This document shows, one piece after another, positions 33,510 through 53,066 of a stretch of DNA of 64,000 nt (positions are counted from its first letter, which is position 1; each line of letters opens with the position of its first letter). The translations under genes and the position numbers were made by a program. The stretch is taken from the NCBI RefSeq assembly GCF_001428385.1, contig NZ_LMSK01000003.1, positions 1 to 64,000 on the forward strand, given 5' to 3'. This DNA comes from Rhodanobacter sp. Soil772 (GTDB lineage Bacteria > Pseudomonadota > Gammaproteobacteria > Xanthomonadales > Rhodanobacteraceae). Under the pieces are notes generated by a model that worked only from the letters and a program-made list of their open reading frames with translations, was not told the DNA's origin and did not search any database.

Positions 33510-35454
<1,945 letters not shown>

Positions 35455-36663: not shown

Positions 36664-37461
36664 TCAGAGTTCGTCCACCATCTCGCCGGCACGGCGGCGG
36701 AACAACACCAGCGCAGCCACGCACAAGACGGCGGCGAGCACGGCTACCGGCCAGATCGTCCGCCAGTCCGGGGCCTGTCCGTACAGGAAAATACCCTGGT
36801 AGGCCTGTGCCAGCGGAGTCATCGGATTGAGGGCCATCCATGGCCGGATCGCCGCCGGCAACGTGGCGGTGGAATAGATGATCGGGGTGAACCAGAACCA
36901 GAACTGCAGCAGGATGTTCACGAACTGGCCGACGTCGCGGAAGAACACGTTGAGCACCCCGGCGATGATGCCAAGGCCGGTGGCGAAGGCGATCTGTACC
37001 AGCAGCACCGGCACCGCGTACAGTGCGATCCAGCCCGGGAAGCTGTGGGTCAACGCGAGGAAGATCAGGAAGATCGAGAAGGTGATGGCGAAGTTCACCA
37101 GCGCATTGATCACCGTGATGGCGGGCAGGCAGATGCGTGGAAAATTGAGTTTCTTGATCATGTTCCCGTTGTCGAGGAATACCGTCTGCCCGCGCTGCAG
37201 GATCTCGCCGAACAGGCCCCAGGTCAGCAGGCCGGCACACAGGAAAACGCTGTACGCGTAGGGGCTGTTCATGCCCGGCAGGCGGGTGCGCATCAGCTCG
37301 GAGAACACCACTGTGTACACGGTGATCATCGCTACCGGTTGCAGCACGGTCCACGCCGCGCCGAGCAGCGAATTGCGGTAGCGCGCCTGGAATTCGCGTT
37401 TGACGCTGCCGAGGATGAAGCCCCGGTAGTGCCACAGGGCGCGGGTAAGGGTGAGGCTCAT
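36664..37461 (-). CDS. wzm: O-polysaccharide ABC exporter, membrane subunit (system 1)
   Basis: The protein has 265 residues and six predicted membrane helices of the ABC-2 type. FQARYRNSLLGAAWTVLQP near the N-terminus and FRDVGQFVNILLQFWFWFTP in the middle are hallmark segments. Together with Wzt it flips lipid-linked polysaccharide across the inner membrane. The neighbouring gmd/rmd genes suggest that the cargo contains D-rhamnose. Confidence 0.95.
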   Translation of the reverse strand: MSLTLTRALWHYRGFILGSVKREFQARYRNSLLGAAWTVLQPVAMITVYTVVFSELMRTRLPGMNSPYAYSVFLCAGLLTWGLFGEILQRGQTVFLDNGNMIKKLNFPRICLPAITVINALVNFAITFSIFLIFLALTHSFPGWIALYAVPVLLVQIAFATGLGIIAGVLNVFFRDVGQFVNILLQFWFWFTPIIYSTATLPAAIRPWMALNPMTPLAQAYQGIFLYGQAPDWRTIWPVAVLAAVLCVAALVLFRRRAGEMVDEL

Positions 37462-37525
37462 GCGGGTTCGACTCCGGTCAGTCGATTGCGTCGTGGCTGT
37501 CCTGCGTCGGCGAGGCCTGCTTGCG

Positions 37526-38395
37526 TCATGGTTTGCGTGCCACGATGATCTGGCTCTTCGGCATGAACTGGTCCAGCTGCTGCTTGAGCTGGGTCCCCTG
37601 CGGCAGGGCCAGGATGGCGCGCCATGCCTCGGTCCAGTGATTCAGCGCCGGATGATCGGGCTTGTCCAAGTCTACTTTGCAGGCCCAGAACAAGGCCCAC
37701 CAGATCGACCAGAAGAATCCGTACTGGGTGTGCTCCTCGATGACCAGGCCGGCGCGGGTAACCATCCGTGCAAACTGTTCGCGTTCGATGATGCGGACAT
37801 GGTTGGGTTTCTGGAAGTAGCTGGGTGGCGCCACGTGCTTTTGCAGGTTCTCCTGCAGCGCATCCGGCACGCTCAGCAGGTAGCGGGCGCCCGGCTTGCC
37901 GATGCGCACCAGTTCGGCGAGCAACTGGTCGGGATCGTCGACGTGTTCGAGTACCTCGGTGCACAGCACGCGGCTCGCCACGGCGTCCGCCAATGGCAAT
38001 GGGTTGGCGTCGCTGACATGGGTGGCGTAGGCGTGCGGGATGATTTCCGCCAGCTTTCCCCCGATCGCGGCGATCACCTGCGGGTCGATGTCGACGACGG
38101 TGACATGCGCACCGCGGCGGGCGCAGAACAGGCTGGCGCCACCGTCGCCGCAACCCACGTCGACCACCGTGTCGTCCGGCCCGATCGGGATGCCGCGAAA
38201 CACCTCGTCGGTGGCGTTCTGGAACCACCCGCTCAGCACGGCGTCGTGCAGGCCGACACCGGTGGCGCCGGACAGGTCGACGGTTTCAGGTGTCGGGGCG
38301 GGTGCGCCTGGCTCGCCGCGGGCGTCGGATGACACCGACCCGGCGCCTTCCGCGGAAGGCGGCAATCCAAGCAGCTTCTTGGTGAGGTCGGACAT
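37526..38395 (-). CDS. Class I SAM-dependent methyltransferase
   Basis: The protein has 289 residues. The SAM-binding motif is VVDVGCGDGGASLF near residue 78, followed by VTVVDIDPQ and CTEVLEHVDDP. The first 45 residues are low-complexity and Pro/Ala-rich. It lies 64 bp upstream of wzm on the same strand. Methylation of the non-reducing end is a common stop signal for ABC-exported O-chains, so a terminator role is possible but not shown. Confidence 0.85.
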   Translation of the reverse strand: MSDLTKKLLGLPPSAEGAGSVSSDARGEPGAPAPTPETVDLSGATGVGLHDAVLSGWFQNATDEVFRGIPIGPDDTVVDVGCGDGGASLFCARRGAHVTVVDIDPQVIAAIGGKLAEIIPHAYATHVSDANPLPLADAVASRVLCTEVLEHVDDPDQLLAELVRIGKPGARYLLSVPDALQENLQKHVAPPSYFQKPNHVRIIEREQFARMVTRAGLVIEEHTQYGFFWSIWWALFWACKVDLDKPDHPALNHWTEAWRAILALPQGTQLKQQLDQFMPKSQIIVARKP

Positions 38396-38486
38396 GGTCA
38401 GTTTCCGGGAGCGTGGAGGTGCCGATGCGGATGATGGCAGCAGGCGAATGGGGTGCGCACGGTCGTGGCGAAAAATGCACCGGGAA

Positions 38487-39710
38487 TCATGGGCGGGGTT
38501 CGGTCGCGCCGACGGATACCGGTGTGGCCACGGTTATCGCCGCAGTACGGGTTGGGCGCGTGCAGCGGTACCGGAAGCCTTCCGCAATATGCCTGCCGCG
38601 TTGCCGCAGCGGTTGTTCAAGGTAGCGGTAGTTCAGGTCGGCCAGCAAGGCAATCATGCCGGCTGCGAGCAGAAACAGCAGCCACGCCGGAAGGTGCAGG
38701 GGCGCGTCGCCGGAGCTGCCGAGGCGGAAGCCGAGTTCGCGCAGCAGGAAATATACCGGCACGTGAATCAGGTAGATCGCGTAGGAACGGGCGCCGATCC
38801 ATACCAGCACGCGCTTGCACCAGCCGTCCGGCAGCAGGTAATGCCGATCGTACGAGGCGAGCCACACCAGCACGGCGGAAAGTGCCGCGATCGCACTGAT
38901 GCGGTAACGCCAGTCCTGCAGGTCGGCCGAGGTGAGTGCGGCGAGGGCTGCCAGCAACAGGCAGGGCAGCAGCACGCGCAGCCATCGCATGCGCAACAGG
39001 AAGCCCGGGTTCAGCGCCGCATACGTCTTGCCGGATGCGGCCATGGCCAGCAAGACACCCAGCGCCAGTGCGTCGGTACGCACCGACATCAGCAGCGGCG
39101 TGCGGAAGACGCATAGCTGGACCACGACCAGCAAGATCATCAGCAGGTCGATGCGCCGGCGCAGCATGGCCACGAGCAAGGGCAGCAGCAGGTAGAACTG
39201 CTCCTCCAGCGACAGGCTCCAGTAAACGAAACTGGCGCCGTACTCGTAGCGGAAGAAGGCGTCGGCAAAACGGAAATTGGCCACATTCAGCATGCCGGCC
39301 ACGCTGGCCATCAGGTTGGCATGGATGCTGCCGAAAGCACCGCTGCGATTGAACGCGACCGCAGCCAGCAGGATCAGCCCCAGCCACAGCCAAGCCGAGG
39401 GCAGCAGGCGCCAGAAGCGGCGGATCCAGAACGCCCCGATCGTGCCTGCCTGCGCGCGCAGGTTCGTTCCGGCAGCTGCCATCTGGGGCAGCAGGCTGCG
39501 CGCGATGACGAAGCCGGAAATGGCCAGGAACAGGTCCACCCCGAACCAGAAATCCGCGTGCTGGAACAGTCGGCCGATCCACGGCAGGCCGGGGTGGAAC
39601 AGGTTGCCCTGCATGTGATGAAAGGCCACGCCGATGACGGCAACCGCGCGCAGGCATTCGATATCGCGGTTGCGCGTTTCGTGTGGCGCCTGCTCAGGTC
39701 GGGTCGACAT
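38487..39710 (-). CDS. Membrane-bound sugar O-acyltransferase (acyltransferase-3 family)
   Basis: The protein has 407 residues with about ten membrane helices. The family motifs are RNRDIECLRAVAVIGVAFHH (His near residue 33), WFGVDLFLAISGFVIARSL and YWSLSLEEQFYLLLP. Such enzymes transfer acetyl or longer acyl groups onto exopolysaccharide or O-antigen sugars in the inner membrane. It overlaps the preceding glycosyltransferase by 17 bases. The ATG at 39710 gives the usual short cytoplasmic start. Confidence 0.92.
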   Translation of the reverse strand: MSTRPEQAPHETRNRDIECLRAVAVIGVAFHHMQGNLFHPGLPWIGRLFQHADFWFGVDLFLAISGFVIARSLLPQMAAAGTNLRAQAGTIGAFWIRRFWRLLPSAWLWLGLILLAAVAFNRSGAFGSIHANLMASVAGMLNVANFRFADAFFRYEYGASFVYWSLSLEEQFYLLLPLLVAMLRRRIDLLMILLVVVQLCVFRTPLLMSVRTDALALGVLLAMAASGKTYAALNPGFLLRMRWLRVLLPCLLLAALAALTSADLQDWRYRISAIAALSAVLVWLASYDRHYLLPDGWCKRVLVWIGARSYAIYLIHVPVYFLLRELGFRLGSSGDAPLHLPAWLLFLLAAGMIALLADLNYRYLEQPLRQRGRHIAEGFRYRCTRPTRTAAITVATPVSVGATEPRP

Positions 39711-41004
39711 GCACGGGATCCATCGAGCGGGTTGTGCTGGCAGCCAGTCGGTCGAGGATGAACCGCTGCAATCGTGGCCGCACCACCTCGGCGGAACAGT
39801 AACGTTGCAGCGACGCGGCAGCGGCGTTGCCCATCGCCGCATACACTTCCGGTTCGTTCCTGGCTACGTGATAGCTGCGCCGGTAAGCGTCGACCAGCGA
39901 CTGGTAGTGGATGCGCTGGCGCAGGGTGCGATAAGCCTGGCGCTGATCGTGCGGCCAGGTGCTGGGCTCCACGCTGGAGTCGATGACGAAGGCCCCCTCG
40001 GGGGTGACGTAATCCAGCATGGACGTGTGCCGTGGTGCCACCGCCGGCTTGCCGGCCGACATGTATTCCATCAGCGGCAGGCACTGACCCTCGCCGTGCG
40101 AGGTGTTGACCGCGTAGGTCGTGGCGCGCAGCAGGGTGTTGTATTCCGGCTTTTGCAGGTAGGCATGTACCAGCACGACGCGGCAGGACAGCCGCCCCAT
40201 CTTGTAGACCGCTTCCAGCAAGCTCGGGATGATGTCGGCGGGGTCGTGATGGGTCAGCTTGATCAACAAGGTGGCGTCCGCCTTGTCGCGCAGCGCATCG
40301 CAGAAGCCGGTAATCATCTCCAGCCAGTTCTTGCGCGCGTCGTGGGGATTGAAGATGGCGGTGTACAGCACGCCGTCCAGGACAAGTTCGCCCTGGTAGT
40401 CATGCCGGTTTTCCGGCAGCGGCAGCGGGTCGGGCTGTGCGGCCAGCAGCAGGCTCTTGCGGTACGCCGAAAGATCCGTGCGGCGGGTGTCGATCACCAG
40501 CCCGTTGACGGGCAAGGTGACCGGTCCGCCCAGGGGTTCGCGCAAGGACTGCACGCGATCCCACAATGGGGCCGGCACGCTGGCGATGGGAAAGTCCGCA
40601 CCCAGGGCGGCACGGGTCCGCTCCACCGTGAAGCTGGAGTGGGTCAGTGCGGCACCGAGCTTCGCCAGCACGCGGGTCCAGTCGTTGCGCGGCTTGCCGC
40701 CGAATGCCTCGCTGGGCAGGGCCTCGTACTCCCAGGCAAACACCGGGATGGTCGGGCAGGCCAGTCCGATCGGCGTCTTGTTCGGTGGCATGAAGCACAG
40801 AAACACGCAGGGCTCGCCATGGCGACGGCAGCTGGCGTGGATCGCGTCGACCTGGCGCTCGGGGTCATCCACCTCGATGACGATACCCAGTTCGTCAAGC
40901 AACGGGCGGAACTCCTCCACCACGAAGCGGTAGCTGTATTCGGGGCGCCCCAGTTGCTGCTGGATCTGCCTTGCCGCCGTGCTGGTATGGATCAGCAGGA
41001 TCAT
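39694..41004 (-). CDS. Glycosyltransferase, paralogue of the adjacent upstream gene
   Basis: The protein has 436 residues. It has a GT-B/GT4-like donor domain with YTAIFNPHDARKNWLEMITGF, LLIKLTHHD and GEGQCLPLMEYMSAGKPAV. The segment LACPTIPVFAWEYEALPSE is shared almost exactly with the gene at 41001. The ATG at 41004 overlaps the neighbour's stop by four bases. The two were probably produced by tandem duplication and then diverged. Its sugar specificity cannot be told from sequence. Confidence 0.8.
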   Translation of the reverse strand: MILLIHTSTAARQIQQQLGRPEYSYRFVVEEFRPLLDELGIVIEVDDPERQVDAIHASCRRHGEPCVFLCFMPPNKTPIGLACPTIPVFAWEYEALPSEAFGGKPRNDWTRVLAKLGAALTHSSFTVERTRAALGADFPIASVPAPLWDRVQSLREPLGGPVTLPVNGLVIDTRRTDLSAYRKSLLLAAQPDPLPLPENRHDYQGELVLDGVLYTAIFNPHDARKNWLEMITGFCDALRDKADATLLIKLTHHDPADIIPSLLEAVYKMGRLSCRVVLVHAYLQKPEYNTLLRATTYAVNTSHGEGQCLPLMEYMSAGKPAVAPRHTSMLDYVTPEGAFVIDSSVEPSTWPHDQRQAYRTLRQRIHYQSLVDAYRRSYHVARNEPEVYAAMGNAAAASLQRYCSAEVVRPRLQRFILDRLAASTTRSMDPVHVDPT

Positions 41005-42476
41005 GATGCGACCGGCAGCGGCTGCGATGACGAGCCGGATGCGGGCGATGCAGGTGGCTTGCCCGACAGGGGCAGGTCCGGGCACAGGAACGCATGCAGG
41101 TGCGACTTCACGACCTCGTGGCCGCAGTAAGCCTGGATGGCCTCGTGCGCCCGGCGCGACATCTGCCGGTAGCGGTGCGGGTCGTGTTGCGCAACTTCAA
41201 AACTGCGCCGGTATGCATCGACCAGCGACTGCCAGTCGAGCTGGTGGTACGAGGTCCGGTTGACCTCGTTGTCGCCATGCGGCCATACCGTGGGCACGTC
41301 GGGGTAGCTCGCCACCACGAAGGCAAGGCTGTCGTCGACGTAATCGGCCATGGCGGTGTTGTCCGGAGCGATGGCCGGCACGCCCTCGCCGAGAAACTCG
41401 ACCAGCGGCAGGCACAGGCCCTCGCACAGCGAGGTGTTCACGTAATAGGTGGTCGCGGCGACCAGGGCGGCATAGTCCTCATCGGGCAGATAGCCGTTGA
41501 TGGCAATCACCCGGCATTTGAAGGGGGCCAGCTTGGTCAGCAGCATCAACAACTGGATATGCGGATGGGCAAGGTGGGTGCCGGTCAGCTTCAGGACCAG
41601 GGTTGCATCTGCGGTATCGCGGAAGGTCCAGCAGAATGCGGTGATCAGATCCTCCCAGTTCTTTCGACCGGCCGCGGGTGCCAGCACGGCGGTGTAGACC
41701 ACCCCGTGCAGGCGGGTGCGGATGGGTTTGGCCGGCGGCAGCTCCCAGCCGCAGATCAGCGGCGCCGATTCGTCTGCGTCGGTAAACGCGTCGGGCAGGT
41801 CGGGTACCTGGACGTCCGCCATGCTCGACCGTGCACGCGTTGGTTCGGGCAGGTCATCGAGGTCGCCCGGAAGAAAAGCGGTCTCGTCCTCCTCGTCAAG
41901 GTAGATCAGGCCATCCACGTCGAGGCCCATGCATCGACTGTCAGCCACGCTGGCATTCACCTTGAGCAGCACACCCTGCGCCGCGGGAGGCACGTGGCCA
42001 TGTTCGCTGCCGTGGGCGATCGGCTTGATCGGCGAGGGAATCGCCACGATCGGGAAGCTTGGCCCCATGCCGCGCCGTACCGCCGCCACGGTGTGGCTGG
42101 ACAGGGTGATGGCGCGGCCGGTACGCGACAGCACGTAGCGCCAGTCGTGCCGTGGGTCGTCCAGCCAGCATTCTTCCTCGATCTGCTGGGGAATATCCGG
42201 GTATTCCCATGCAAACACCGGGATGGTCGGGCAGGCGAGGCCCAGTGGGGTCTTGTGTGGTGGCGCGAACGACAGCAGGACGCAACGCTCGCCGACGGCG
42301 AGGCACTGCGCGTGGATGGCGTCGGCTTCCGCCGGGTTTTCCAGCTGGACGACTTCGCCCAGCTCCGCAAGCACCTCGGAAAACGCACGCAACAGGAAGA
42401 AATAGCTGTATTCCGGCGCGCCAAGATGCGCTCCGATGCTGCGCTGGTCGATTTGGGCGTGTAGAAGAAATTTCAT
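41001..42476 (-). CDS. Glycosyltransferase, first gene of the wzm/wzt system 1 operon
   Basis: The protein has 491 residues. The layout matches the downstream paralogue: an N-terminal KFLLHAQIDQRSIGAHLGAP, the shared LACPTIPVFAWEY block, then VYTAVLAPAAGRKNWEDLIT, LVLKLTGTHLAHPH and SLCEGLCLPLVEFLGEGVPA. Between the halves is an acidic stretch (DEEDETAFLPGDLDDLPE) not obvious in the paralogue. It starts the six-gene minus-strand series GT, GT, acyltransferase, methyltransferase, wzm, wzt and is divergent from metB with 228 bp between, in which I see no clear promoter. Confidence 0.8.
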   Translation of the reverse strand: MKFLLHAQIDQRSIGAHLGAPEYSYFFLLRAFSEVLAELGEVVQLENPAEADAIHAQCLAVGERCVLLSFAPPHKTPLGLACPTIPVFAWEYPDIPQQIEEECWLDDPRHDWRYVLSRTGRAITLSSHTVAAVRRGMGPSFPIVAIPSPIKPIAHGSEHGHVPPAAQGVLLKVNASVADSRCMGLDVDGLIYLDEEDETAFLPGDLDDLPEPTRARSSMADVQVPDLPDAFTDADESAPLICGWELPPAKPIRTRLHGVVYTAVLAPAAGRKNWEDLITAFCWTFRDTADATLVLKLTGTHLAHPHIQLLMLLTKLAPFKCRVIAINGYLPDEDYAALVAATTYYVNTSLCEGLCLPLVEFLGEGVPAIAPDNTAMADYVDDSLAFVVASYPDVPTVWPHGDNEVNRTSYHQLDWQSLVDAYRRSFEVAQHDPHRYRQMSRRAHEAIQAYCGHEVVKSHLHAFLCPDLPLSGKPPASPASGSSSQPLPVAS

Positions 42477-42704
42477 GCTGTTCCGATCGACCACCACGGA
42501 GCCGCCGGGCGGCGGGGATGCCAGATGCTGCATGGTGCCGCAGTATGGGCGTATCGGAAACCTTGGATGGTGCGAGGCGACACACGGGCGCCGGGGTTCG
42601 ATGGAAAATGAACGGCTTGCTCGCCGTCATTTTGGCGGGTACAGGGCGAACGGGTAAGATGGCTCCCTTATGGCTTGCCCTGATCAGGCCCGGACCCTCG
42701 CAGC

Positions 42705-43998: not shown

Positions 43999-44823
43999 AT
44001 GATTTCAGCCTATCGTCTCATCGACCCGCTCTCTCCATACCGAGCGCTGTGTCGTCACTTCGCGCTGGTTGTGCAGATGGCTCGACGTGATGTTGTAGGC
44101 CGTTATCGCGGATCGTTCATTGGATTGCTCTGGTCGTTTTTCAATCCGTTGCTGATGTTGATGATCTACACGTTCGTGTTCGGGATCATCTTCAATTCGC
44201 GCTGGAACGCCCAGGTGACGGGCCACTTCGAGTTCGCGATCATCCTGTTCGCGGGATTGAACATCAACTCCATGTTCGCGGAATGCGCCAATCGGGCTCC
44301 GACGTTGATTGTGGAAAACACGAATTTCGTCAAGAAGGTCGTGTTTCCGCTGGAAATACTGTCGTGGAGCGCGCTGGGCTCAGCACTGTTCCACCTGCTG
44401 ATCTCGACGGTTGTCCTGCTGATCATCTTGTTGTTCGTGAAGGGCTCCCTGCCGTGGACGATCGTCCTGTTCCCGATAGTCGTCGCATGCTTTTTGCCCT
44501 TTGTGGCCGGTACCATCTGGCTGCTGGCGTCCCTCGGCGTTTTTCTGCGTGACCTCAAACAGGCCACTGGCATCATCACCACGGCGCTCATGTTCCTTGC
44601 ACCGATCCTGTATCCCAAGGAATTCATTCCCGAGCCATATCGTGACTGGATGTATCTGAATCCGTTGACGGTGATCGTGGAGGCCTCCCAGGACGTCCTC
44701 ATCTGGGGAAGGCCGCCGTCATGGATTCACCTTGGCCTCTATGCCGTATTGGCGTGCCTGTTTGCATGGCTTGCCTTTGCATGGTTCGAGCGAAGCAGGA
44801 AAGGGTTCGCTGATGTCCTCTGA
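43999..44823 (+). CDS. wzm: O-polysaccharide ABC exporter, membrane subunit (system 2)
   Basis: The protein has 274 residues and six predicted helices. ARRDVVGRYRGSFIGLLWSF and FLRDLKQATGIITTALMFLAP mark it as an ABC-2 polysaccharide permease. It is distinct from the system 1 Wzm in sequence, so the two are not recent duplicates. It is the first gene of a tightly packed operon and overlaps wzt by 11 bases. No strong ribosome-binding site is seen before the ATG. Confidence 0.94.
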   Translation: MISAYRLIDPLSPYRALCRHFALVVQMARRDVVGRYRGSFIGLLWSFFNPLLMLMIYTFVFGIIFNSRWNAQVTGHFEFAIILFAGLNINSMFAECANRAPTLIVENTNFVKKVVFPLEILSWSALGSALFHLLISTVVLLIILLFVKGSLPWTIVLFPIVVACFLPFVAGTIWLLASLGVFLRDLKQATGIITTALMFLAPILYPKEFIPEPYRDWMYLNPLTVIVEASQDVLIWGRPPSWIHLGLYAVLACLFAWLAFAWFERSRKGFADVL

Positions 44824-46222
44824 CAATTTCAGCATTCGTGTCGACGGGCTCGGGAAACGCTACGAGATCTATGCGCAACCGGCCGATCGGCTCAAGCAGA
44901 TGATCCTGCCGCGCTTTGGGCGGGCGGTAGGCAAGGATGGACTTGCCTATTTCAAGGAGTTCTGGGCACTGCGCGGCGTGTCGTTCGATGTGCGGCGCGG
45001 TGAAACCGTGGGCATCATTGGACGCAACGGTTCAGGCAAGTCGACCCTGCTGCAGATGGTGTGCGGGACGCTCCATCCGACCGAGGGCGTTGTGGAGGTG
45101 CCTGGGCGGATTGCCGCCCTGCTTGAGTTGGGAGCCGGATTCAATCCGGAATTCACCGGCAAGGAAAACGTCTATCTGAGCGGACTGCTTTACGGCATCC
45201 CGGAAGGCGAATTGCGCAAGCGTTACCAGTCGATCGTGGAGTTTGCCGATATCGGGGACTTCATCAACCAGCCGGTCAAGACGTATTCGAGCGGCATGTA
45301 CGTGCGGCTCGCGTTCGCGATTGCGGCCCATGTCGATGCCGATACCCTGGTGATCGACGAGGCGTTGAGCGTCGGCGATGTGCGTTTCACGCAGAAGTGC
45401 ATGCGCTACCTGCGTGAATTCCAGAAGCGCGGCACGCTGCTGTTCGTCAGCCATGACACTGGGGCAGTCACCAGTCTGTGCAGCCGGGCTATCTGGCTGG
45501 ATTCGGGACGAATGGTAATGGACGGCTCCGCACGCGATGTCGTGGAGAGGTACTTGGCTGAGCAACATGCGGCCGATCGTGCATCGCTTGGCGAGTCAGT
45601 AATAGTGCGGGTTCCCATTTCGGCGACTAGTGCGATTACCGACGGAGTGAACGCGGGGCCTGCCACCATGCCGGCAGACGTGGTCGATCCGCGCAAGGCC
45701 ATGCTGAATGGCGAGGCGACACGCAATCTTGTCGAGATATTCGAGTTCGACCCGACGCAGATCGACAACGAATTCGGTACGGGTGCCGCGCGTATCATCG
45801 ATGTGCAGTTGTTGAACGGCAATGGCGAGGTACATCGGCTGACGGCAGGCGGCGAAGTTGCCGACCTGATGATCGAGGCCGAGGTGTCCGAATCTCTGGA
45901 TGCACCGATCTTCGGGTTCTACGTCAAGGATCGGCTGGGGCAGCGGTTGTTCGGTGACAACACTTACCTCAGCTACCGGGAGCAGCCCTTCTGTGCGCGA
46001 GTCGGTACCCGACTACGTGCGCATTTCCGCTTTCGTATGCCGGTGTTGCCCAGTGGCGATTATTCGGTGGACGTGGCACTGGCCAATGGAACCCAGGAGA
46101 ACCATACCCAGCAGCACTGGATCCATGATGCCCTCACCTTCAAGGCGAGCGAGAGCACCATGCGGCATGGGTTGGTTGGTATCCCGATGCACGCCATCGA
46201 GATCGAGCTGACGGGAGGGTAA
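44813..46222 (+). CDS. wzt: O-polysaccharide ABC exporter, ATP-binding subunit with carbohydrate-binding tail (system 2)
   Basis: The protein has 469 residues. Walker A is GRNGSGKST (70-78), the signature is YSSGMYVRLAFA, and Walker B is LVIDEALSVGD. The C-terminal domain from about 330 has GFYVKDRLGQRLFGDNTYL, the Wzt glycan-binding block, and is preceded by a spacer of about 70 residues. Such tails recognise a capped chain end before export. The next gene, three bases on, encodes a methyltransferase fusion that could make such a cap. Confidence 0.95.
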   Translation: MSSDNFSIRVDGLGKRYEIYAQPADRLKQMILPRFGRAVGKDGLAYFKEFWALRGVSFDVRRGETVGIIGRNGSGKSTLLQMVCGTLHPTEGVVEVPGRIAALLELGAGFNPEFTGKENVYLSGLLYGIPEGELRKRYQSIVEFADIGDFINQPVKTYSSGMYVRLAFAIAAHVDADTLVIDEALSVGDVRFTQKCMRYLREFQKRGTLLFVSHDTGAVTSLCSRAIWLDSGRMVMDGSARDVVERYLAEQHAADRASLGESVIVRVPISATSAITDGVNAGPATMPADVVDPRKAMLNGEATRNLVEIFEFDPTQIDNEFGTGAARIIDVQLLNGNGEVHRLTAGGEVADLMIEAEVSESLDAPIFGFYVKDRLGQRLFGDNTYLSYREQPFCARVGTRLRAHFRFRMPVLPSGDYSVDVALANGTQENHTQQHWIHDALTFKASESTMRHGLVGIPMHAIEIELTGG

Positions 46223-46225
46223 TCG

Positions 46226-49200
46226 ATGGAGTTTACGGGCGAGCGCTACGTGCCGACCGAGGCGGGAGAGATCCGGCACGAACACTTGCATCGTTACGCA
46301 TGGTGCGCGCACCTTGTCGAAGGCAAGGATGTTCTCGACATTGCCTGCGGCGAGGGCTATGGCAGCGCGATGCTTGCGCGAAGTGCCCGTTCAGTAGTTG
46401 GAGTGGATATCGCCGACAATGCAGTCGAGCATGCGCGTACGACGTACCATGACATTCCCGACCTTGAGTTCGTGCAGGGCAATGCCGCACAGATACCGCT
46501 GAATGATAATAGCGTCGATGTGGTGGTCTCATTCGAAACCATCGAGCATCACGATCGCCATCGGGAAATGCTCAGCGAGATTCGTCGCGTGCTGCGGCCT
46601 GATGGGTTGCTGGTCATTTCCTCGCCGAACCGAACGGTCTATTCGGAACTGGCCGGGCATCACAACGAATTCCATGTCAAGGAGCTGGATTTTGCCGAGT
46701 TCGATGCGGTGCTCCGGGAGCAGTTTGGCGATATCTACTACTTCGGTCAGAGGCTCGCGGTCGGCTCGTCCATCTTTACGTTGCAGGGTGACGGAGCCAC
46801 CGTACAGACGATTGACGCACTGACGGACACGGGATCCGAGGTCGTCGAACGTGCCGCGTCACTGGCCGACCCGGTCTATTTCATTGCGATTGCTGGTGTG
46901 CTGGACACAGTGTTTCCAGAAAAATTGCGCCCCTCTGTTCTGTTTTCCGAGGCCGAGGATCTTTATACCCATCATCGCAGGGTCGCTGCGTGGGCAGCTG
47001 GACTCGACGTCGAGCTGAATGAGTTGCGTGAGGCGTATGGGAACATGGTGCGGGAGCATGAGTCCACGGTGGCTTGGGCCAAGTCGCTAGATACGGAGCT
47101 GAATGCCCTGCACGAGTCGTATGGACAGACCCAGGCAGACCATGAAAAGGTAGCCACTTGGGCCAAGTCGCTGAGCGTGAAGTTGACGCAGGAACATGCA
47201 CACAGCGCCAAACTTGCAGCAGAGCAAGAAGCAGCAATTGCCTGGGCGCAATCCCTGGATAGGGAACTGGATACCCTACGAGAGTCGTACGGGCAGACCC
47301 AGATAGATCATGAGAAGGCGGTCACTTGGGCGAAGTCGCTGAGCGTGGAGTTGACGCAAGAGCGTACACGCGGCACTAGACTTGCCGCAGAACACGAAGA
47401 TGCAATTGCCTGGGCACAATCCTTGAGTGCCGAACTGGATGCTTTGCGCAAGTCGTATGGGCAGACCCAGATAGATCATGAGAAAGCGGTCACTTGGGCA
47501 AAGTCGTTAAGTACGGAATTGACACAAGAACGTGAGCGTGGCGCTAGACTCGCCACGGAACACGAAGAGGCGGTCGTCGAAGCAACACGTCTGCATGAGG
47601 AACTTGCAGCACTGCAGAGGGAAAAGCGCGAAATGGAAGAATGGGGGCGCGCTGTCGAGCAGCAGTTGGCTGCAATGGGACAGCATATCAAGGGCTTCTC
47701 CGGCCAGCACCAGCGTGCCGCGATGGTCGGTGAGAAGATAGTCGAAGCTTTTACGCGAGTCAGCGGCGAACTGAGCGAGCTTCAGTCCCGTTACGCCGCA
47801 TTGTGTGTCGAGCACGAGAAAGTGGCTCAATGGGCACATGCGTTGGACGGCGAACTGGCCGATCGCAATACCTTTGTCGCTTCGTTGCAGGATGAACACG
47901 GTCGATTGAGAGCCCGCGCGGAGTTGCTGAACGGCGAGCTGGCGACATTGGGCAATCAGTACGAACGAGTGTTGCAATCGCGCTCCTGGGCTCTGACCCG
48001 GCCGTTGCGTGCGATCGGCATGTTGCTGCGTCGAGATTGGCAGGGCCTGCAGGTGATTTTTGCAGAACGGCGCATGCTTGGAGCCCGTAAGGCGAAGGGG
48101 GTGATGGAGGCGCTGGCCGACTCCCTTCCCGTGGCCCAAACCGACGCACTGCAGTCGCGGGACGAGTCGTCCGGGCAACACGTGAGCGAGTTGGCGTTTC
48201 CGTTCTACAACGAACCCGAAGTCACCATCATCATTCCGACCTATGGCAACCTGGCCATCACGGCGGCATGCCTGCGCTCGATTGCTGCGCACCCACCGCA
48301 GGTGCCGTACGAGGTTCTGGTAGCCGAGGATGCCTCCGGAGATGTCGACATGGGTGCGTTGACCGGGGTGTCTGGTCTTCGTTACGAAGTCAACCCAGAG
48401 AATCTGGGTTTCCTGCGCTCGTGCAACCGTGCCGCCGGGTTGGCGCGCGGCCGTTATCTCTATTTCCTCAATAACGATACCGAGGTTACGGACGGGTGGC
48501 TGGACAGCATGCTGGACGTGTTCAGGCGATTCCCGGATTGCGGCATGGTCGGTTCCAAGCTGATTTACCCGGATGGTCGACTGCAGGAAGCCGGCGGGAT
48601 CATCTGGGCCGACGCCAGTGCCTGGAATTACGGGCGCCTGGATGACCCCGCGCGCAGTATCTACAACTATGTGCGTGAGACGGATTACTGCTCGGGCGCG
48701 TCATTGCTGATCCCTGCCGAATTATTCGAGCGACTGGGTCGTTTCGATGAGCGTTATGTACCCGCGTATTGTGAGGATTCGGATCTCGCTTTCAAGGTGC
48801 GCGAAGTTGGATTAAAGCTCTACTACCAGCCGCGCTCGGTGGTTGTGCATCACGAAGGCGTATCACACGGCACCGATGTCAGCTCCGGCATCAAGGCTTA
48901 TCAGGTCGAGAACCAGCGGCGCTTCTACGAACGTTGGCATGAAGTACTCAAGCGTGAGCATTTTCCCAATGGTGAAAACGTCTTTCGTGCGCGTGGGCGT
49001 ACGGGTGCGATGCGGACCATTCTCATCGTGGATCACTATATCCCCCAGCCGGACCGGGATGCGGGCTCACGCACCATGTGGCAGTTCATCCGCATGTTCG
49101 TACGGAAGGGCTTCTCGGTGAAGTTCTGGCCGGAGAATCTGCACAACGATCCGGCCTACGCGCCGCTGATGCAACAGCACGGTGTCGAAGTTATCTACGG

Positions 49201-50155
49201 TGCCGAATATCACCAGGGTTTTGAGCAGTGGATGCACCAGCATGCAGCAGATATCGACGTCGTGCTGCTGAGCCGCCCGCATATTGCGGTCAACTTCATC
49301 GAGGCGGTGCGCAAGAACAGTAGTGTGCCCCTGCTTTATTACGGCCACGATGTGCATTACCTGCGTATCGAGGACCGGTTGCGTATACAACCGGCAGACA
49401 AGCTGCTGCGGGCGGAGTGCGACAGGGCAAGAAAGCTGGAACACGAAGTCTGGAAGCTGGTGGACGCCGTCTACTATCCTTCTGTCAGCGAGACGCAGCA
49501 CGTGCGCGCGTGGTTGGATGAGCATGCACCGGAGGTGCATTCCCATACGATAGCCGCATATGCGTTCGATGATTTTCCCGAGCATCCCGATGCGAACCTG
49601 GCCAATCGGCACGATCTGGTCTTCGTCGCGGGCTTTGCCCACCCACCGAATGTGGATGCCGCGGAGTGGTTTGTCCGTGAGGTGCTGCCTCTTGTCCGTA
49701 GGCACCGCCCGCAGATTCACCTCGATCTGGTCGGTTCCAACCCGTCCGATGAGGTCAAGGCATTGCATGGCGATGGCGTTACGGTTACGGGTTTCGTCAC
49801 CGATGAAGAGCTTGCGGCACGCTATGCGAACGCGCGCGTTGTCGTTGCGCCACTGCGCTTCGGCGGAGGCATGAAAGGCAAAGTGATCGAAGCCATGCGC
49901 TTTGGCGTGCCGTGCGTGACTACGTCGGCCGGGGTGCAGGGTCTCGAACAGACAGTCGGGTTTCTTGCTGCTGCGGATACCGCTGAGGATTTTGCAGAGC
50001 GGGTTCTGCACCTGCTCGATGATGATGCCGCCTGGCGTCGAAACTCCGCTGCGGGGCAGGCTTTCGTGCGTGCCAATTTCACGGAAGAAGCGCAATGGAG
50101 CGAGTTCGCGCAAGAGCTTTCATGGCGCGTAGCTGCCGAGGAGCGTACGCCATGA
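46226..50155 (+). CDS. Methyltransferase - coiled coil - GT2 - GT4 fusion protein
   Basis: The protein has 1309 residues in four parts. Residues 1-245 are a SAM methyltransferase ([13 protein letters not shown] at 36-48, then [14 protein letters not shown]). Residues about 250-580 are a coiled coil that includes three tandem 56-residue repeats. At 585-595 lies [11 protein letters not shown]. Residues about 666-920 are a GT2 domain ([34 protein letters not shown]). Residues 931-1300 are a GT4 domain ([38 protein letters not shown]). It is coupled to wzt on one side and hddA on the other. The layout recalls WbdD, in which a coiled coil sets chain length between a terminating enzyme and the polymerase. 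Here transferase domains are fused directly, so one protein may both extend and cap. Confidence 0.9.
47066..47569 (+). repeat. Three tandem 168-bp coding repeats (56 residues, eight heptads each)
   Basis: Units run 47066-47233, 47234-47401 and 47402-47569. Each contains WA-SL--EL--L--SYGQTQ-DHEK and then TWAKSLS-(K/E)LTQE. Units 2 and 3 are nearly identical at DNA level over long parts, for example a shared CAGACCCAGATAGATCATGA. A length of 56 is a whole number of heptads, so gain or loss of a unit would lengthen or shorten the coiled coil without breaking its register. Confidence 0.9.
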
Positions 50156-51180
50156 TCGTACGTGCGCGTGCACCGCTGCGGCTGGGTCTCGCCGGCGGTG
50201 GCACCGATGTATCACCTTACTGCGATGTCTACAGCGGTCGCGTGATGAACGTCACCATCGACCGCTATGCGTATGCGATCTTGACGGCAGGCAACGGACG
50301 AGAGACCTGTTTTCATGCACTCGATGTACGCCACGAAGAGACGCATTCCTGTGACGAGAGTGTTGCGGGCGGCGGGCCACTGCAATTGCTCAAAGGCGTG
50401 TACGCGCGGGTGTCGCGCGATTTTCTTCACGGCGAACAACCGTCGCTGACGGTGAAGACGTTCTCGGATGCTCCGCCAGGTTCCGGGTTGGGCTCGTCCT
50501 CGACCATGGTGGTGGCGCTGTTGCAGGCGTTCGTCGAATATTTCTCGCTGCCTCTGGGTGAGTACGAAGTGGCGCAGCTCGCCTATGACATCGAGCGCAA
50601 GGATCTGGGCCTGGCGGGCGGCAAGCAGGATCAATATGCAGCCACCTTTGGCGGCTTCAACTTCATGGAGTTCTACGCGGACGATCGGGTCATCGTCAAT
50701 CCGTTGCGCATAAAAGATTGGGTCTGGGCTGAACTCGAGAGTTCACTGGTGCTGTACTTCACCGGTGTTTCGCGCGCTTCCGCCGACATTATCGATCAGC
50801 AATCGCGCAATGTGGGCAACAAGAATCAGGCTTCTATCGATGCCATGCATCAGCTGAAGGACGAAGCCATTCAGATGAAGGAATGCATCCTCAAGGGCGA
50901 CCTTCGTCGGCTGGAGTCCACGCTTCAAGCGGGTTGGGTGGCGAAGAAGAAAACCGCCACCAGCATCAGCAATCCACTGATCGAAAAGGTCGAGAAAGTT
51001 GCTTTCGCCAACGGCGCGCGCGCCGCCAAGGTGTCCGGTGCCGGCGGCGGCGGCTTCATGATGTTCCTGTGCAGCCCCGAGCAGCGCATCGGCCTGACTC
51101 GTGCGTTATTGGAGCAAGGTGGCAGCATCATGGATTTTCATTTCACGCATCAAGGAGCCACCTCATGGCGGATCATCTGA
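50152..51180 (+). CDS. hddA: D-glycero-alpha-D-manno-heptose-7-phosphate kinase
   Basis: The protein has 342 residues, a GHMP kinase. [15 protein letters not shown] at the N-terminus, the ATP loop [11 protein letters not shown] near residue 125, and [13 protein letters not shown] near the C-terminus are the three GHMP motifs. It phosphorylates heptose-7-phosphate at the 1-alpha position, which leads to the GDP-activated and not the ADP-activated sugar. It overlaps the previous gene by four bases (ATGA). Confidence 0.93.
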
Positions 51181-51764
51181 ACGGACACATCGACGGCGAG
51201 TTCGACAAGTCAATCAAGCTGCTGCACGCCATGTCCATGGACACGGTACTGCGAGAGTCGATACCGCGTGCGGTAGCGCTGTCGGTGGAGGCGCTCAAGG
51301 GTGGCAACAAGCTGATGTTTGCGGGTAACGGCGGTAGTGCCGCGGATGCACAGCATTGGGCGGGTGAACTGGTCAGCCGCTTCTATTTCGATCGCCCGGG
51401 TCTTCCGGCTATCGCCTTGACGACGGACACCAGCATCCTCACGGCCATTGGCAACGACTATGGCTATGACTATGTCTTCGCCCGGCAGGTAGAGGCGCTT
51501 GGCCGCAAGGGTGATGTGTTTTTTGCCATTTCTACATCAGGCAATTCGAAGAACATCCTGCGGGCGATCGAGGCGGCTCGGACCATCGGCATCAAGGTGA
51601 TCGGGTTTACCGGGCAGGGCGGCGGAAAGATGGCTGAACTGTGTGACCTGTGCTTCCGCATGCCGTCGTCGGAGACACCGAAGATCCAGGAAGGGCACGA
51701 GTTCATTGGTCATCTCCTGTGCGGCCTGATCGAGCACGAGATATTCGGCCATGGCGCGCACTGA
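51165..51764 (+). CDS. gmhA: Sedoheptulose-7-phosphate isomerase
   Basis: The protein has 199 residues with a SIS domain. MFAGNGGSAADAQHWAGEL, the conserved SRF, and FFAISTSGNSKNI are the family blocks, and EGHEFIGHLLCGLIE supplies the metal-site His/Glu. It begins the heptose pathway by making D-glycero-D-manno-heptose-7-phosphate. AAGGAG precedes the ATG, and it overlaps hddA by 16 bases. Confidence 0.95.
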   Translation: MADHLNGHIDGEFDKSIKLLHAMSMDTVLRESIPRAVALSVEALKGGNKLMFAGNGGSAADAQHWAGELVSRFYFDRPGLPAIALTTDTSILTAIGNDYGYDYVFARQVEALGRKGDVFFAISTSGNSKNILRAIEAARTIGIKVIGFTGQGGGKMAELCDLCFRMPSSETPKIQEGHEFIGHLLCGLIEHEIFGHGAH

Positions 51765-52464
51765 CGAGGCGGTAATTCTTGCCGGTGGTTTCGGTACCCG
51801 TTTACAGAGCGTCGTCAGCGATGTGCCCAAGCCGCTCGCGCCGATCCAGGGCAAGCCGTTTCTTGCTTTTCTGCTCGATCGGTTGGCCGTGCAGGGGTTC
51901 CGGCGGGTAGTGCTGGCGACCGGCTACATGGGCGACAAGGTTCGCCAGGTAATGGGCGATCGCTGGCACGGCATGTCACTGATTTATTCGCAGGAACAGC
52001 AACCGTTGGGTACCGGCGGAGCGATCGCCCAAGCGTTTCCGCGAATCCATGGTGATGCGTTGTTCGTGCTCAATGGTGACACCTATCTCGAGCTTGATTA
52101 TGGTGCCTTCGACGAACAAGCAGATGCGTCTGGCGCGAAGCTCGGTATGGCACTCGCCCAGGTGCCGGATGTAGCCCGCTATGGTGCCGTCCAAGTCCAG
52201 GGGCATCGGGTGATCGGTTTTTCCGAAAAGGGGTTGCGCGGTCCGGGTTACATCAATGCGGGTGTGTACCGGCTGGCACGCGAGGTTGCAGGTGCTTTCC
52301 CTGCGCTTGCCAGTTTCTCTTTCGAGAACGCGGTACTGGTTCCGGCAGTACAGGATGGGCAGGTGCAAGCCTTTACTCAAACTGCGGCGTTTATCGATAT
52401 CGGTGTACCGGAGGATTACTCCCGCGCGCAGCTTGAGCTCGGTGGAAGCGAGAGCGGCGCCTGA
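51751..52464 (+). CDS. hddC: D-glycero-alpha-D-manno-heptose-1-phosphate guanylyltransferase
   Basis: The protein has 237 residues. The nucleotidyltransferase signature AVILAGGFGTRLQSVVSDVPKP is near the N-terminus (shown in part), with LGTGGAI and NGDTYLELDY following. Because it lies between gmhA and gmhB with hddA present, GTP is the probable nucleotide and GDP-heptose the product. It overlaps gmhA by 14 bases. Confidence 0.92.
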   Translation: MARTDEAVILAGGFGTRLQSVVSDVPKPLAPIQGKPFLAFLLDRLAVQGFRRVVLATGYMGDKVRQVMGDRWHGMSLIYSQEQQPLGTGGAIAQAFPRIHGDALFVLNGDTYLELDYGAFDEQADASGAKLGMALAQVPDVARYGAVQVQGHRVIGFSEKGLRGPGYINAGVYRLAREVAGAFPALASFSFENAVLVPAVQDGQVQAFTQTAAFIDIGVPEDYSRAQLELGGSESGA

Positions 52465-53066
52465 TGGGACTGCAACCGGCGCTTTTTCTCGATCGGGATG
52501 GCGTGATCAACGTTGATCACGGCTATGTCTGCACGCCAGACCGCACGGAGTTCGTCGACGGGATATTTGATCTCGTGCGGCTGGCCAATCGACGAAACCA
52601 TCGGGTGGTAGTCGTCACCAACCAGGCGGGTATTGCCCGGGGCTACTACTCCGAGGATGAGTTCCGGCGCTATATGGAATGGATGTCCAGCGTGTTCGAG
52701 GAACATCAGGCCAGACTGGATGCGGTCTACTACTGTCCGCACCATCCCGCCACTGGGCAAACGGGATACTTGCGCGCTTGTACCTGCCGCAAGCCCGCCC
52801 CAGGCATGATCCTGGCAGCACAGCGGGACTTGGCTCTGGATCTGGCGGCATCCGTTCTCGTCGGCGACAAGCCATCCGATATTGCTGCTGGCCAAGCAGC
52901 GGGGGTCGGGCTATGTGTACTGGTCGGCACAAATGGCGCGACGGGGCATGGCATCACAGAGGACTTGAGGGCGATGGTTGATGTGCTTGCGGTGCGCCAG
53001 GCAGGAGACCATCAATCAGTCCTTATCGGGTCAGATATCATCATCAACACAGCATCCACGAGGTGA
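52464..53066 (+). CDS. gmhB: D-glycero-D-manno-heptose-1,7-bisphosphate 7-phosphatase
   Basis: The protein has 200 residues, a HAD-IIIA phosphatase. ALFLDRDGVINVD has the nucleophile Asp10 and Asp12, VVVTNQAGIARGYY is motif II, and CPHHP with CTCRKP is the zinc-binding loop typical of GmhB. It removes the 7-phosphate. Its ATG overlaps the hddC stop by one base (TGATG). It completes the GDP-heptose set. Confidence 0.94.
   Translation: MGLQPALFLDRDGVINVDHGYVCTPDRTEFVDGIFDLVRLANRRNHRVVVVTNQAGIARGYYSEDEFRRYMEWMSSVFEEHQARLDAVYYCPHHPATGQTGYLRACTCRKPAPGMILAAQRDLALDLAASVLVGDKPSDIAAGQAAGVGLCVLVGTNGATGHGITEDLRAMVDVLAVRQAGDHQSVLIGSDIIINTASTR

Follow-up and report, generated by a model that had tools for sequence, protein, structure and literature searches.

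The window, a stretch of 64,000 nucleotides from Rhodanobacter sp. Soil772 (contig NZ_LMSK01000003.1, positions 1 to 64,000), contains a wzm-wzt pair encoding a polysaccharide exporter of the ABC type, in the same cluster as an intact open frame that begins with ATG and encodes a single protein of 1309 residues (Table 1). The Wzt of this pair bears a C-terminal glycan-binding domain, and its stop codon is separated by 3 bases from the ATG of the fusion gene, which bears out the placement of this protein, in the first-pass annotation, directly after a Wzt with a glycan-binding tail. At the other end the stop codon of the fusion gene and the ATG of hddA overlap, and the four genes 3' of the fusion correspond to the GDP-heptose pathway. 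A scan of eight window proteins against NCBIfam recovered no rml gene.

Table 1. Features of the exporter, fusion and heptose genes in the window, with the evidence for each
Feature	Coordinates	Strand	Evidence
wzm, ABC-2 permease of polysaccharide exporter	43999..44823	+	PF01061 E 2.7e-26
wzt, exporter ATPase with C-terminal glycan-binding domain (Wzt_C residues 320-457)	44810..46222	+	PF00005; PF14524 E 1e-33; start codon is the analyst's choice
Fusion protein, putative cap-ruler-polymerase, 1309 aa	46226..50155	+	single ORF, domains, comparison with 52 orthologues
N-terminal class I SAM methyltransferase module (candidate cap module), ~residues 1-240	46226..46945	+	Pfam, alignment, AF2 model, Foldseek
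Predicted coiled coil, residues 246-600, predicted helix almost without breaks	46961..48025	+	AF2 model, hydrophobicity periodicity
Seven in-phase 28-residue (4-heptad) units	46985..47572	+	WAxSL/WAxGL motif spacing; Tandem Repeats Finder
SRSWxLTxPLR motif 3' of coil, candidate membrane-proximal amphipathic helix	47978..48040	+	alignment, 8 rows
GT2 (GT-A) module, ~residues 664-925; NNDT residues 749-752	48215..49000	+	Pfam, alignment, structural comparison
GT4 (GT-B) module, ~residues 930-1302	49013..50131	+	Pfam, structural comparison
hddA-like D-glycero-D-manno-heptose 7-phosphate kinase	50152..51180	+	NF049969 404 bits, under cut-off 600
gmhA-like sedoheptulose 7-phosphate isomerase	51171..51764	+	TIGR00441 E 1.9e-61, 206.7 bits, slightly under cut-off 209.45; start is the analyst's choice
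hddC-like heptose 1-phosphate guanylyltransferase	51751..52464	+	NF049965 187 bits, under cut-off 300
gmhB-like heptose bisphosphate phosphatase	52464..53066	+	TIGR00213 182.5 bits, over cut-off 149.6

Pfam identifies Methyltransf_11 (residues 37-131, E 2.9e-25), Glycos_transf_2 (residues 667-785, E 1.9e-14) and Glyco_trans_1_4 (residues 1129-1266, E 1.3e-28) in the fusion protein, and in the predicted layout a coiled coil separates the N-terminal methyltransferase from the GT2 and GT4 modules at the C-terminal end of the same chain. The SAM motif DIACGEGYG occupies residues 38-46, with D38, A40 and G42-G46 invariant in eight aligned rows; in the SRSWxLTxPLR region S9, W12, T15, P17 and R19 of alignment A2 are likewise invariant across eight rows. 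Among the 50 Foldseek matches listed, the N-terminal model retrieves generic class I methyltransferases (TMt 0.28-0.68), and the substrate of the methyltransferase is therefore not readable from them. The GT half, compared with the PDB, has its top target-normalised TM-score, 0.74 among the 50 matches listed, with PimB' in complex with GDP-Man. No kinase domain is present in the 18 Pfam matches of the protein or in the best 25 of its 55 NCBIfam matches, and Pfam detects no third transferase in the polypeptide.

The coil, about 355 residues between the methyltransferase and GT2, is marked by a strong hydrophobicity period: residues 245-600 peak at 3.50 with a power of 19.2 (maximum of 1000 shuffles, 8.9) and contain one proline, and at period 3.5 the methyltransferase, GT2 and GT4 regions have no coil signal (power 0.2-0.8). 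The AF2 model of residues 1-601 contains helices at 246-355, 358-489 and 497-600; as its mean pLDDT is 67.8, the coil is to be regarded as predicted rather than established. The single frame, the Pfam matches, this periodicity and the modelled helices uphold the earlier description of a 1309-residue protein with methyltransferase, coiled coil, GT2 and GT4. Within the coil, WAxSL/WAxGL motifs start at residues 256, 284, 312, 340, 368, 396 and 424, and Tandem Repeats Finder reports a period of 168 bp at 47114-47568 (2.7 copies, 80% matches). Relative to its two nearest kin, the methyltransferase-to-GT2 spacer of the window protein is longer by 196 residues, exactly 7 x 28. At a helix rise of 0.1485 nm per residue, 28 residues correspond to about 4.2 nm. 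Such four-heptad units are common in the coils of orthologues, and in 23 of 50 orthologue coils the internal repeat is not above shuffles. The coil spans 101-667 residues in these 50 orthologues, its length varying with both flanking ends conserved. The spacer differs from that of the window protein by a multiple of 7 in 9 of the 30 rows with this methyltransferase, the window itself counted, and among distant kin the spacer lengths are not clearly phased by heptads relative to the window. A search of open-licence papers found none on repeat-built rulers.

Matches to the GT half with at least 52% identity occur in 38 of 233 genomes of the family (window counted; in one genome the match is in two fragments). 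The GT2-GT4 half is conserved at 51% identity or more in 53 orthologues, again counting the window, and the N-terminal module varies: it is the methyltransferase (MT) in 30, a sulfotransferase-like module (ST) in 13, DUF4915 in four, a long methyltransferase in four, and absent or cut off in two. One MT assignment (L096) was made by hand. For the fourth class the PDB sequence matches include a single kinase, at E 0.96, and the class is therefore named just 'long MT'. A contig scan yielded eight loci, five of them duplicates of loci with G handles, and a Marinicella locus with the methyltransferase part only (L104) was left out; frames picked automatically 5' of some loci were in many cases antisense and had no Pfam matches. 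Related polymerases with differing cap modules and coil lengths occur, some of them inside one genus. The recurrence of the same N-terminal methyltransferase in 30 of the 53 orthologues rejects a chance assembly, and the intact frame together with orthologues elsewhere rules out an artefact of ORF calling. Matches to the cap modules outside fusions at these loci were cut ends of fusion genes and one weak methyltransferase (47 bits, L065); one locus (L133) encodes a stand-alone DUF4915-coil protein.

Forty-seven loci have both a cap module and a Wzt with a C domain, and in these the Wzt_C clusters track the cap in 28 of 29 MT, 9 of 10 ST, 4 of 4 DUF4915 and 4 of 4 long-MT loci, the latter two classes forming two subclades of one cluster. 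Of the 30 MT orthologues, 28 adjoin a Wzt whose C domain belongs to a single cluster. The exceptions are an ST and an MT locus (L086 and G463), each with another Wzt C class, and three loci (G043, G084, G046) whose best Wzt match has no C domain; one genome (G183, 89% complete) has no Wzt at E <= 1e-40. On the Wzt_C tree the cap changes three times, which is the minimum (200 shuffles: mean 16.9, range 14-18), as against 13 changes when the same 47 rows are placed on the polymerase tree (shuffles: mean 16.9, minimum 13) and 15 on the polymerase tree of the orthologues (shuffles 15-21). As 13 and 15 are the lowest shuffle values, the cap is non-randomly distributed on the polymerase tree as well. 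The ATPase half of Wzt (Wzt_N) tracks the cap almost equally, with four changes, and the covariation is therefore not specific to the C domain. Furthermore, in 37 of the 47 loci wzt borders on the end of the fusion gene that encodes the cap, and 36 of these are MT, DUF4915 or long-MT loci, in which the covariation may hence be linkage; linkage may thus explain part of the match between cap and Wzt. In five ST loci (G063, G024, G367, G128, G227) Wzt lies 6, 25 or 14 kb away or on another draft contig, and its C-domain class is unchanged. Across 28 MT loci, methyltransferase distances correlate with those of Wzt_C (0.76), Wzt_N (0.78), GT2 (0.68) and GT4 (0.45), the last two being parts of the same polypeptide; given Wzt_C, the partial correlation between the methyltransferase and the GT modules is 0.25, reached by none of 999 permutations.

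The donor gene hddA follows the polymerase. It is found in 35 of 51 genomes, never farther than about 1.1 kb from the fusion gene, and the polymerase tree requires three changes for it (shuffles: mean 14.0, minimum 9). It is absent from the other 16 fusion-bearing genomes, 14 of which are at least 90% complete, and heptose is therefore not the substrate across the whole family. Judged from these sequence comparisons, the fusion is a predicted cap-ruler-polymerase protein, and its cap module moves together with the exporter.

A polymerase and a terminator in one chain are not a new layout, as WsaE and the Klebsiella pneumoniae proteins O12 WbbB and O7 ORF6 are characterised precedents. The first-pass annotation contrasted the protein with WbdD/WbdA, in which cap methyltransferase and polymerase are separate proteins, a contrast that leaves out these three single-chain cases. 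WsaE, of the S-layer glycan system of Geobacillus stearothermophilus NRS 2004/3a, is described as an N-terminal methyltransferase with two glycosyltransferase domains and a role in a terminal 2-O-methyl cap, and the stop and start codons of wzm, wzt and wsaE overlap (PMC2943079, PMC3898925). The likeness is one of described domains; WsaE transfers rhamnose with WsaF as its partner, its donor genes are rml where those of the window are hdd, and a coiled coil, predicted in the window protein, goes unmentioned in the passages on WsaE drawn on here. O7 ORF6 is reported to share the N-terminal methyltransferase, the central coil, two C-terminal GT modules and an ABC-exported O antigen; it is however a methyltransferase-kinase forming a methylphosphate cap, carries a CBM and uses dTDP-rhamnose through two GT2 modules (PMC11231755), whereas the window protein has GT2 and GT4. 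As the predicted coil begins at residue 246, there is space for the methyltransferase alone and none for a kinase; with no extra domain 5' of the coil and with GT2 and GT4 modules, the window protein is not of the O7 ORF6 type. O12 WbbB also joins polymerase and terminator in one polypeptide, and its coil is reported as an established ruler; unlike the methyltransferase of the window, its terminator is a Kdo transferase, within an enzyme of families GT99/GT102/GT103 (PMC11231755). WbdD/WbdA of Escherichia coli O9a and O8 and of K. pneumoniae O3 and O5 likewise have a methyl or methylphosphate cap and a coiled-coil ruler (PMC11231755), but there the terminator and polymerase are two proteins, and O9a WbdD has a kinase besides. 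Membership in the O9a WbdD type is rejected, since the start of the coil leaves no kinase space and the GT modules are in the same chain.

Taken together, these observations make it probable that the fusion is a one-chain cap-ruler-polymerase, with terminal methyl cap, coil ruler and tag reading by Wzt_C, for a surface polysaccharide that depends on the ABC transporter and is very likely the LPS O antigen. Perhaps anchored near the membrane, the GT2 and GT4 modules at the C-terminus would extend the lipid-linked chain, and one or both would presumably draw on GDP-D-glycero-D-manno-heptose from the pathway encoded downstream. The coil, part of which consists of 28-residue units, would keep the methyltransferase at a distance, such that only chains reaching it would be O-methylated, presumably at the non-reducing end, and coil length might thereby set chain length. 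The methyl cap would halt growth and be recognised as a tag by the adjacent Wzt through its C domain, whereupon that Wzt would export the chain. The earlier proposal that the protein extends the chain at one end and caps it at the other is apt for the protein but not for the glycan, as known systems do both at the non-reducing end. A combined polymerase and terminator, as first proposed, is plausible: architecture, neighbourhood, the sequence covariation of cap with Wzt and of polymerase with donor gene, and the variable coil between them fit it. Among published results, the Wzt of Aquifex aeolicus is reported to bind a 3-O-methyl cap (PMC9445017) and O-methylation in E. coli O101 to require an intact coil-bearing methyltransferase (PMC13168486); methylation by WsaE in vitro is described as independent of chain length (PMC2943079), which counts against the ruler reading.

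The methyltransferase might instead modify internal repeat residues or a side branch, with no part in termination or export control, and the coil might be a mere oligomerisation tether. O-methyl sugars can indeed occur internally too. We nevertheless consider this quite improbable, as the cap type covaries with the Wzt type, as would be predicted if the exporter reads it as a tag, unrelated modules are swapped in at the same place, which better fits a terminator slot, and the coil varies in length between conserved ends. A less radical departure keeps the terminator and ruler but makes the polymerase incomplete, with at least one stand-alone transferase supplying further linkages, as WsaF does in Geobacillus and a ribosyltransferase in K. 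pneumoniae O7. This is a serious possibility to which we give somewhat less than even credence, and it is compatible with the cap-ruler-polymerase reading except for the word 'self-contained' in the first-pass annotation, which overstated the case: in known systems the initiating and adaptor transferases are proteins of their own, and Pfam detects no third transferase in the fusion. WsaE is described as acting with WsaF and O7 ORF6 with ORF7; moreover, a GT2-GT4 paralogue lies 18 kb away (C3:68515-70392, 39% identity), and translations at 39694-42533 of the window read as probable GT genes. On the other hand, wzt, the fusion and hddA leave no space for a further gene, and the fusion fills the space between wzt and hddA likewise in orthologous loci where both are adjacent.

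The match between cap and Wzt might also reflect gene linkage only, the contiguous wzt-to-coil block being swapped whole, with no functional fit between its parts. The prevalent adjacency of wzt to the cap-coding end and the nearly equal counts of cap changes on the Wzt_N and Wzt_C trees speak for it, but we consider it unlikely as the full explanation. The Wzt of ST loci may lie 2.3-3.7 kb upstream, at a distance of 6-25 kb or on a different contig, and yet all but one share one C-domain class; the lone exception is the ST locus with an adjacent Wzt; and in one genome (G136) an additional Wzt whose C domain is of the MT type precedes a different methyltransferase protein.

In polysaccharides exported by ABC transporters, termination, measuring and export recognition are understood in a few systems. 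What is added here beyond the known layout is comparative, namely that relatives appear, from their sequences, to swap the cap module together with a matching exporter. It is conceivable, at odds only slightly below even, that the N-terminus is an interchangeable terminator slot, filled besides methyltransferases by sulfotransferase-type modules leaving a chain-ending sulfate and by DUF4915 modules adding or forming a further cap, each with a class of Wzt reader to match; length would be tuned separately by gain or loss of whole 28-residue coil units, and cap, length and repeat unit would evolve independently, as in a natural domain-swap series. The orthologue series, in which related polymerases bear varied caps and coil lengths, lends itself directly to testing whether the Wzt C domain recognises the cap rather than the repeat unit, whether the coil sets chain length in 28-residue steps, and whether the sulfotransferase-like and DUF4915 modules terminate chains. 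Cassettes of a cap plus its reader also suggest themselves as a unit for glycan engineering.

The putative sulfotransferase-type and DUF4915 terminators are kinds absent from the open-licence literature searched, which yielded no description of this protein family as a sulfotransferase terminator or in work on Rhodanobacter/Dyella O antigens, and no paper on DUF4915. In Aeromonas salmonicida, a separate gene of unknown function for a 216-residue sulfotransferase-like protein is reported between wzt and wbbB (PMC4483657). The xanthomonad LPS locus between metB and etfA (Xac strain 306, Xoo strain BXO8) is described as having metB next to wzm-wzt and homologues of the Geobacillus cluster (PMC2238763), the same genomic slot as in the window. 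WsaE is named among the matches of that locus (PMC3898925), where its probable homologue is split over ORF3 and a truncated ORF4/XAC3598.

The fusion gene of the window is an intact open reading frame whose 1309-residue product combines, as proposed in the first-pass annotation, a methyltransferase, a coiled coil, and GT2 and GT4 glycosyltransferase domains in a single chain. The enzymatic domains are recovered by Pfam (see table), and the hydrophobicity of residues 245–600 has a period of 3.50, at a power of 19.2 (shuffle maximum 8.9), against 0.2–0.8 at this period in the remaining regions. The AF2 model places helices at residues 246–355, 358–489 and 497–600 with moderate confidence (mean pLDDT 67.8). 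The C-terminal GT half is predicted to adopt a GT-A fold followed by a GT-B fold (mean pLDDT 75.2, pTM 0.67); the Foldseek matches listed include ppGalNAc transferases and chondroitin polymerase for the former, and PimB' with GDP-Man and a methylmannose polysaccharide mannosyltransferase for the latter. The annotated position right after a Wzt with a glycan-binding tail also holds: wzt, whose product contains the Wzt_C domain, stops 3 bases before the fusion start codon. At the other end, the ATG of an hddA-like gene (heptose 7-phosphate kinase) overlaps the fusion stop codon and is followed by gmhA-, hddC- and gmhB-like genes; only the gmhB-like gene among these four passes its curated cut-off. 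The metB gene, identified by reading its translation, lies upstream. As the variable LPS locus of xanthomonads sits by metB, according to the available part of PMC2238763, the window locus occupies the same slot. The genome comprises 3.57 Mb in 5 contigs.

Features of the window and of the compared loci (L) and genomes (G; G000 is the window's own)
Feature	Position	Strand	Basis or context
Fusion gene	46226-50155	+	window
Class I methyltransferase	residues 37-131		fusion protein, Pfam
GT2	residues 667-785		fusion protein, Pfam
GT4	residues 1129-1266		fusion protein, Pfam
Second ABC exporter cluster	35405-42533	-	window, other side of metB
Wzt with Wzt_C	35405-36661	-	second exporter cluster
Wzm-like	36664-37461	-	second exporter cluster
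Methyltransferase, 289 aa	37526-38395	-	second exporter cluster
Probable acyltransferase	38487-39842	-	reading of translation
Two probable GT4 genes	39694-42533	-	reading of translations
Methyltransferase, 302 aa	55740-56648		window
GT2-GT4 paralogue	G000:C3:68515-70392		L002, L077
Stand-alone DUF4915 protein, 552 aa	L133:6618-8273		G070
Second Wzt, MT-type C domain, then 490-aa Methyltransf_24 protein	L132:6530-7999		G136
Longest coil, ST cap	L086:6601-7587		G421
DDE transposase	L041:2908-3945		G069, directly downstream of fusion gene

The first-pass annotation saw here a possible self-contained polymerase and chain terminator; the architecture and the comparative data support this proposal in part, but the layout is not new. 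In the available text of the reports on Geobacillus WsaE (PMC2943079, PMC3898925), an N-terminal methyltransferase is joined to two rhamnosyltransferase domains, the gene directly follows wzm-wzt, and the terminal 2-O-methyl cap is credited to the protein. The available part of PMC11231755 describes K. pneumoniae O7 ORF6, with a methyltransferase-kinase, coil and two GT2 modules, and O12 WbbB, with terminator, coil and polymerase within one chain. Given these precedents, the window fusion is a variant of a known layout: unlike ORF6 it lacks the kinase and pairs GT2 with GT4, and unlike WsaE, with its rhamnosyltransferase domains, it adjoins GDP-heptose genes.

Orthologues were defined by the GT half. 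In the family, 38 of 233 genomes have a match that is at least 52% identical (the window's own genome included, and one genome with the match in two fragments). With a threshold of E <= 1e-200, 37 of 398 genomes from the order have a match, and 14 of these lie outside the family; in a sample of 369 genomes from the class, 3 have one at E <= 1e-180, all belonging to the order. A comparison set of 53 (window and two named loci included; GT-half identity 50.9–100%) shows four kinds of N-terminal module, or cap: 1) a methyltransferase as in the window (MT, 30); 2) a sulfotransferase-like module (ST, 13); 3) DUF4915 (4, each exceeding the Pfam cut-off); and 4) a long MT (4), in which the methyltransferase is followed by ~400 residues of no assigned kind. 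The other two are L044, the G070 orthologue, which lacks a cap, and L080, cut by a contig end. Pfam detects ST weakly: Sulfotransfer_3 matched 4 of 8 modules scanned at E <= 0.001, with one (L059) exceeding the cut-off, and an NCBIfam scan of one module gave no match; all 12 complete ST modules, however, contain the P-loop motif GMHRSGTS. The window's genus itself contains MT caps (window, L038-L040, L081, L082), DUF4915 caps (L042, GT half 75% identical, and L048) and an ST cap (L079, 73%).

The polymerase tree, in which 51 of the 53 rows have a cap, requires 15 cap changes, which equals the minimum of 200 shuffles (mean 19.1). This points to many switches with some clustering left, and hence to a loose coupling of cap and polymerase. 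The presence of hddA, in comparison, changes only 3 times (shuffle mean 14.0, minimum 9), suggesting that donor supply goes more with the polymerase than with the cap. The gene is found in 35 of 51 genomes, always ~1.1 kb or less from the fusion gene; 14 of the 16 genomes lacking it are at least 90% complete. By cap kind, counting the two named loci, it accompanies 22/30 MT, 8/13 ST, 4/4 DUF4915, 1/4 long MT and 2/2 with no cap or a cut-off one.

Cap and exporter, by the same kind of comparison, appear to be coupled. Where a locus has both a cap and a Wzt that includes a C domain (47 loci), grouping the Wzt_C sequences by single linkage (BLASTP E <= 1e-20) reproduces the cap kind in 28/29 MT and 9/10 ST loci; all DUF4915 (4/4) and long MT (4/4) loci share one cluster, forming two subclades on the tree. 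At E <= 1e-10 all merge except the ST cluster and one single. The Wzt_C tree, which carries long-branch warnings, requires 3 cap changes, the minimum for four kinds (shuffle mean 16.9, minimum 14), and the tree of the ATPase half, Wzt_N, 4, against 13 on the polymerase tree for the same rows as Wzt_C, the lowest shuffle value (13–18); these are quick trees, and the shuffles ignore relatedness. In a smaller set of 37 rows the counts are 5 for Wzm and 7 for the polymerase (shuffles 7–9). Within 28 MT loci, MT distances correlate with those of Wzt_C (0.76), Wzt_N (0.78), Wzm (0.69), GT2 (0.68) and GT4 (0.45); the partial correlation is 0.62 with Wzt_C given GT and 0.25 with GT given Wzt_C, values reached by 0/999 permutations in each case.

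Gene linkage could explain much of this match, because 37 of the 47 loci have wzt directly beside the part of the fusion gene that encodes the cap. The ST set nevertheless argues against linkage as the sole cause: there the Wzt lies 2.3–3.7 kb upstream, 6–25 kb off, or, in draft genomes, on a separate contig, yet its C domain falls into a single class in 9 of 10. Of the two Wzt in G136, one is DUF4915-type and stands just ahead of the DUF4915 fusion; the other is MT-type and stands ahead of a different methyltransferase protein, itself followed by a 793-aa protein with two GT2 stretches. Exceptions to the match are L086, an ST locus whose adjacent Wzt belongs to another class; G463 (MT); and G043, G084, G046 and G183, where the best Wzt match lacked a C domain or none was found. 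Also against it, the Wzt beside the stand-alone DUF4915 protein of G070 clusters with the L086 one. Since Pfam Wzt_C still matches all 8 relatives on which it was run (L086, G070, four ST, and one each of DUF4915 and long MT), 6 of them above the cut-off, the classes are subfamilies of a single domain.

The coil, the presumed ruler, includes in the window protein seven 28-residue units in exact phase, and its DNA shows a 168-bp repeat. The two nearest kin (GT half 91–93% identical) have an MT-to-GT2 spacer exactly 196 residues, or seven units, shorter. Shifts in length by whole 4-heptad units preserve the heptad register; across the MT kin, though, the spacer is not clearly 7-phased (9/30 rows at multiples of 7, window included). 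Among 50 orthologues the coil spans 101 to 667 residues. Internal repetition exceeds all 200 shuffles in 27 and is absent in 23, the best lag (of 7–84) being 28 or 56 in 22 of the 27. The longest coil, of ~667 residues in L086, is largely made of 56-residue repeats, and at the DNA level a 168-bp unit recurs 5.8 times with a 96% match, suggesting a recent expansion.

In the best reading, GT2 and GT4 would polymerise the chain on the membrane side of the coil, the methyltransferase, placed at the opposite end, would cap chains extending that far, and Wzt_C would read the methyl cap. The C domain of A. aeolicus WzmWzt binds 3-O-methyl mannose, as stated in the available part of PMC9445017. The main doubt concerns the ruler step and comes from WsaE, which in the available text of PMC2943079 methylates in vitro regardless of chain length. 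With swappable caps and matched exporters, a polymerase tied to a donor gene, and rulers built from units, the series is of greater interest than the single protein.

Several related loci were also observed. The stand-alone DUF4915 protein of G070 continues into an extended stretch that resembles a coil, with the motif STSWRVTAPLRW at its end; it has the layout of WbdD with DUF4915 replacing the methyltransferase-kinase, and its gene lies directly after wzm-wzt and before that of a 1150-aa WbsX/GT4/GT2 protein. Six loci (L070-L075) contain open frames of 1505–1606 aa whose GT half is ~41–43% identical. These have one more GT4-type domain towards the N terminus, recognised by Pfam in L070 and by profile matches in the other five; on the same strand of the flanks examined, none has a Wzt-like gene scoring more than 150 bits, and a looser look covered only L070 and L072. 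The paralogue in the window's genome is 39% identical and lacks this kind of cap module, and further genomes in the family also have matches in open frames of ~700–870 aa. G069, with the transposase, lacks hddA. At E 1e-20 the Wzt_C of the second window cluster groups with no other; at 1e-10 it becomes part of the MT/DUF4915 group. The last residues of the 302-aa methyltransferase, RTEWALSLQRELGHKK, resemble one 28-residue coil unit, and this protein may be a remnant or a short version that stands alone.
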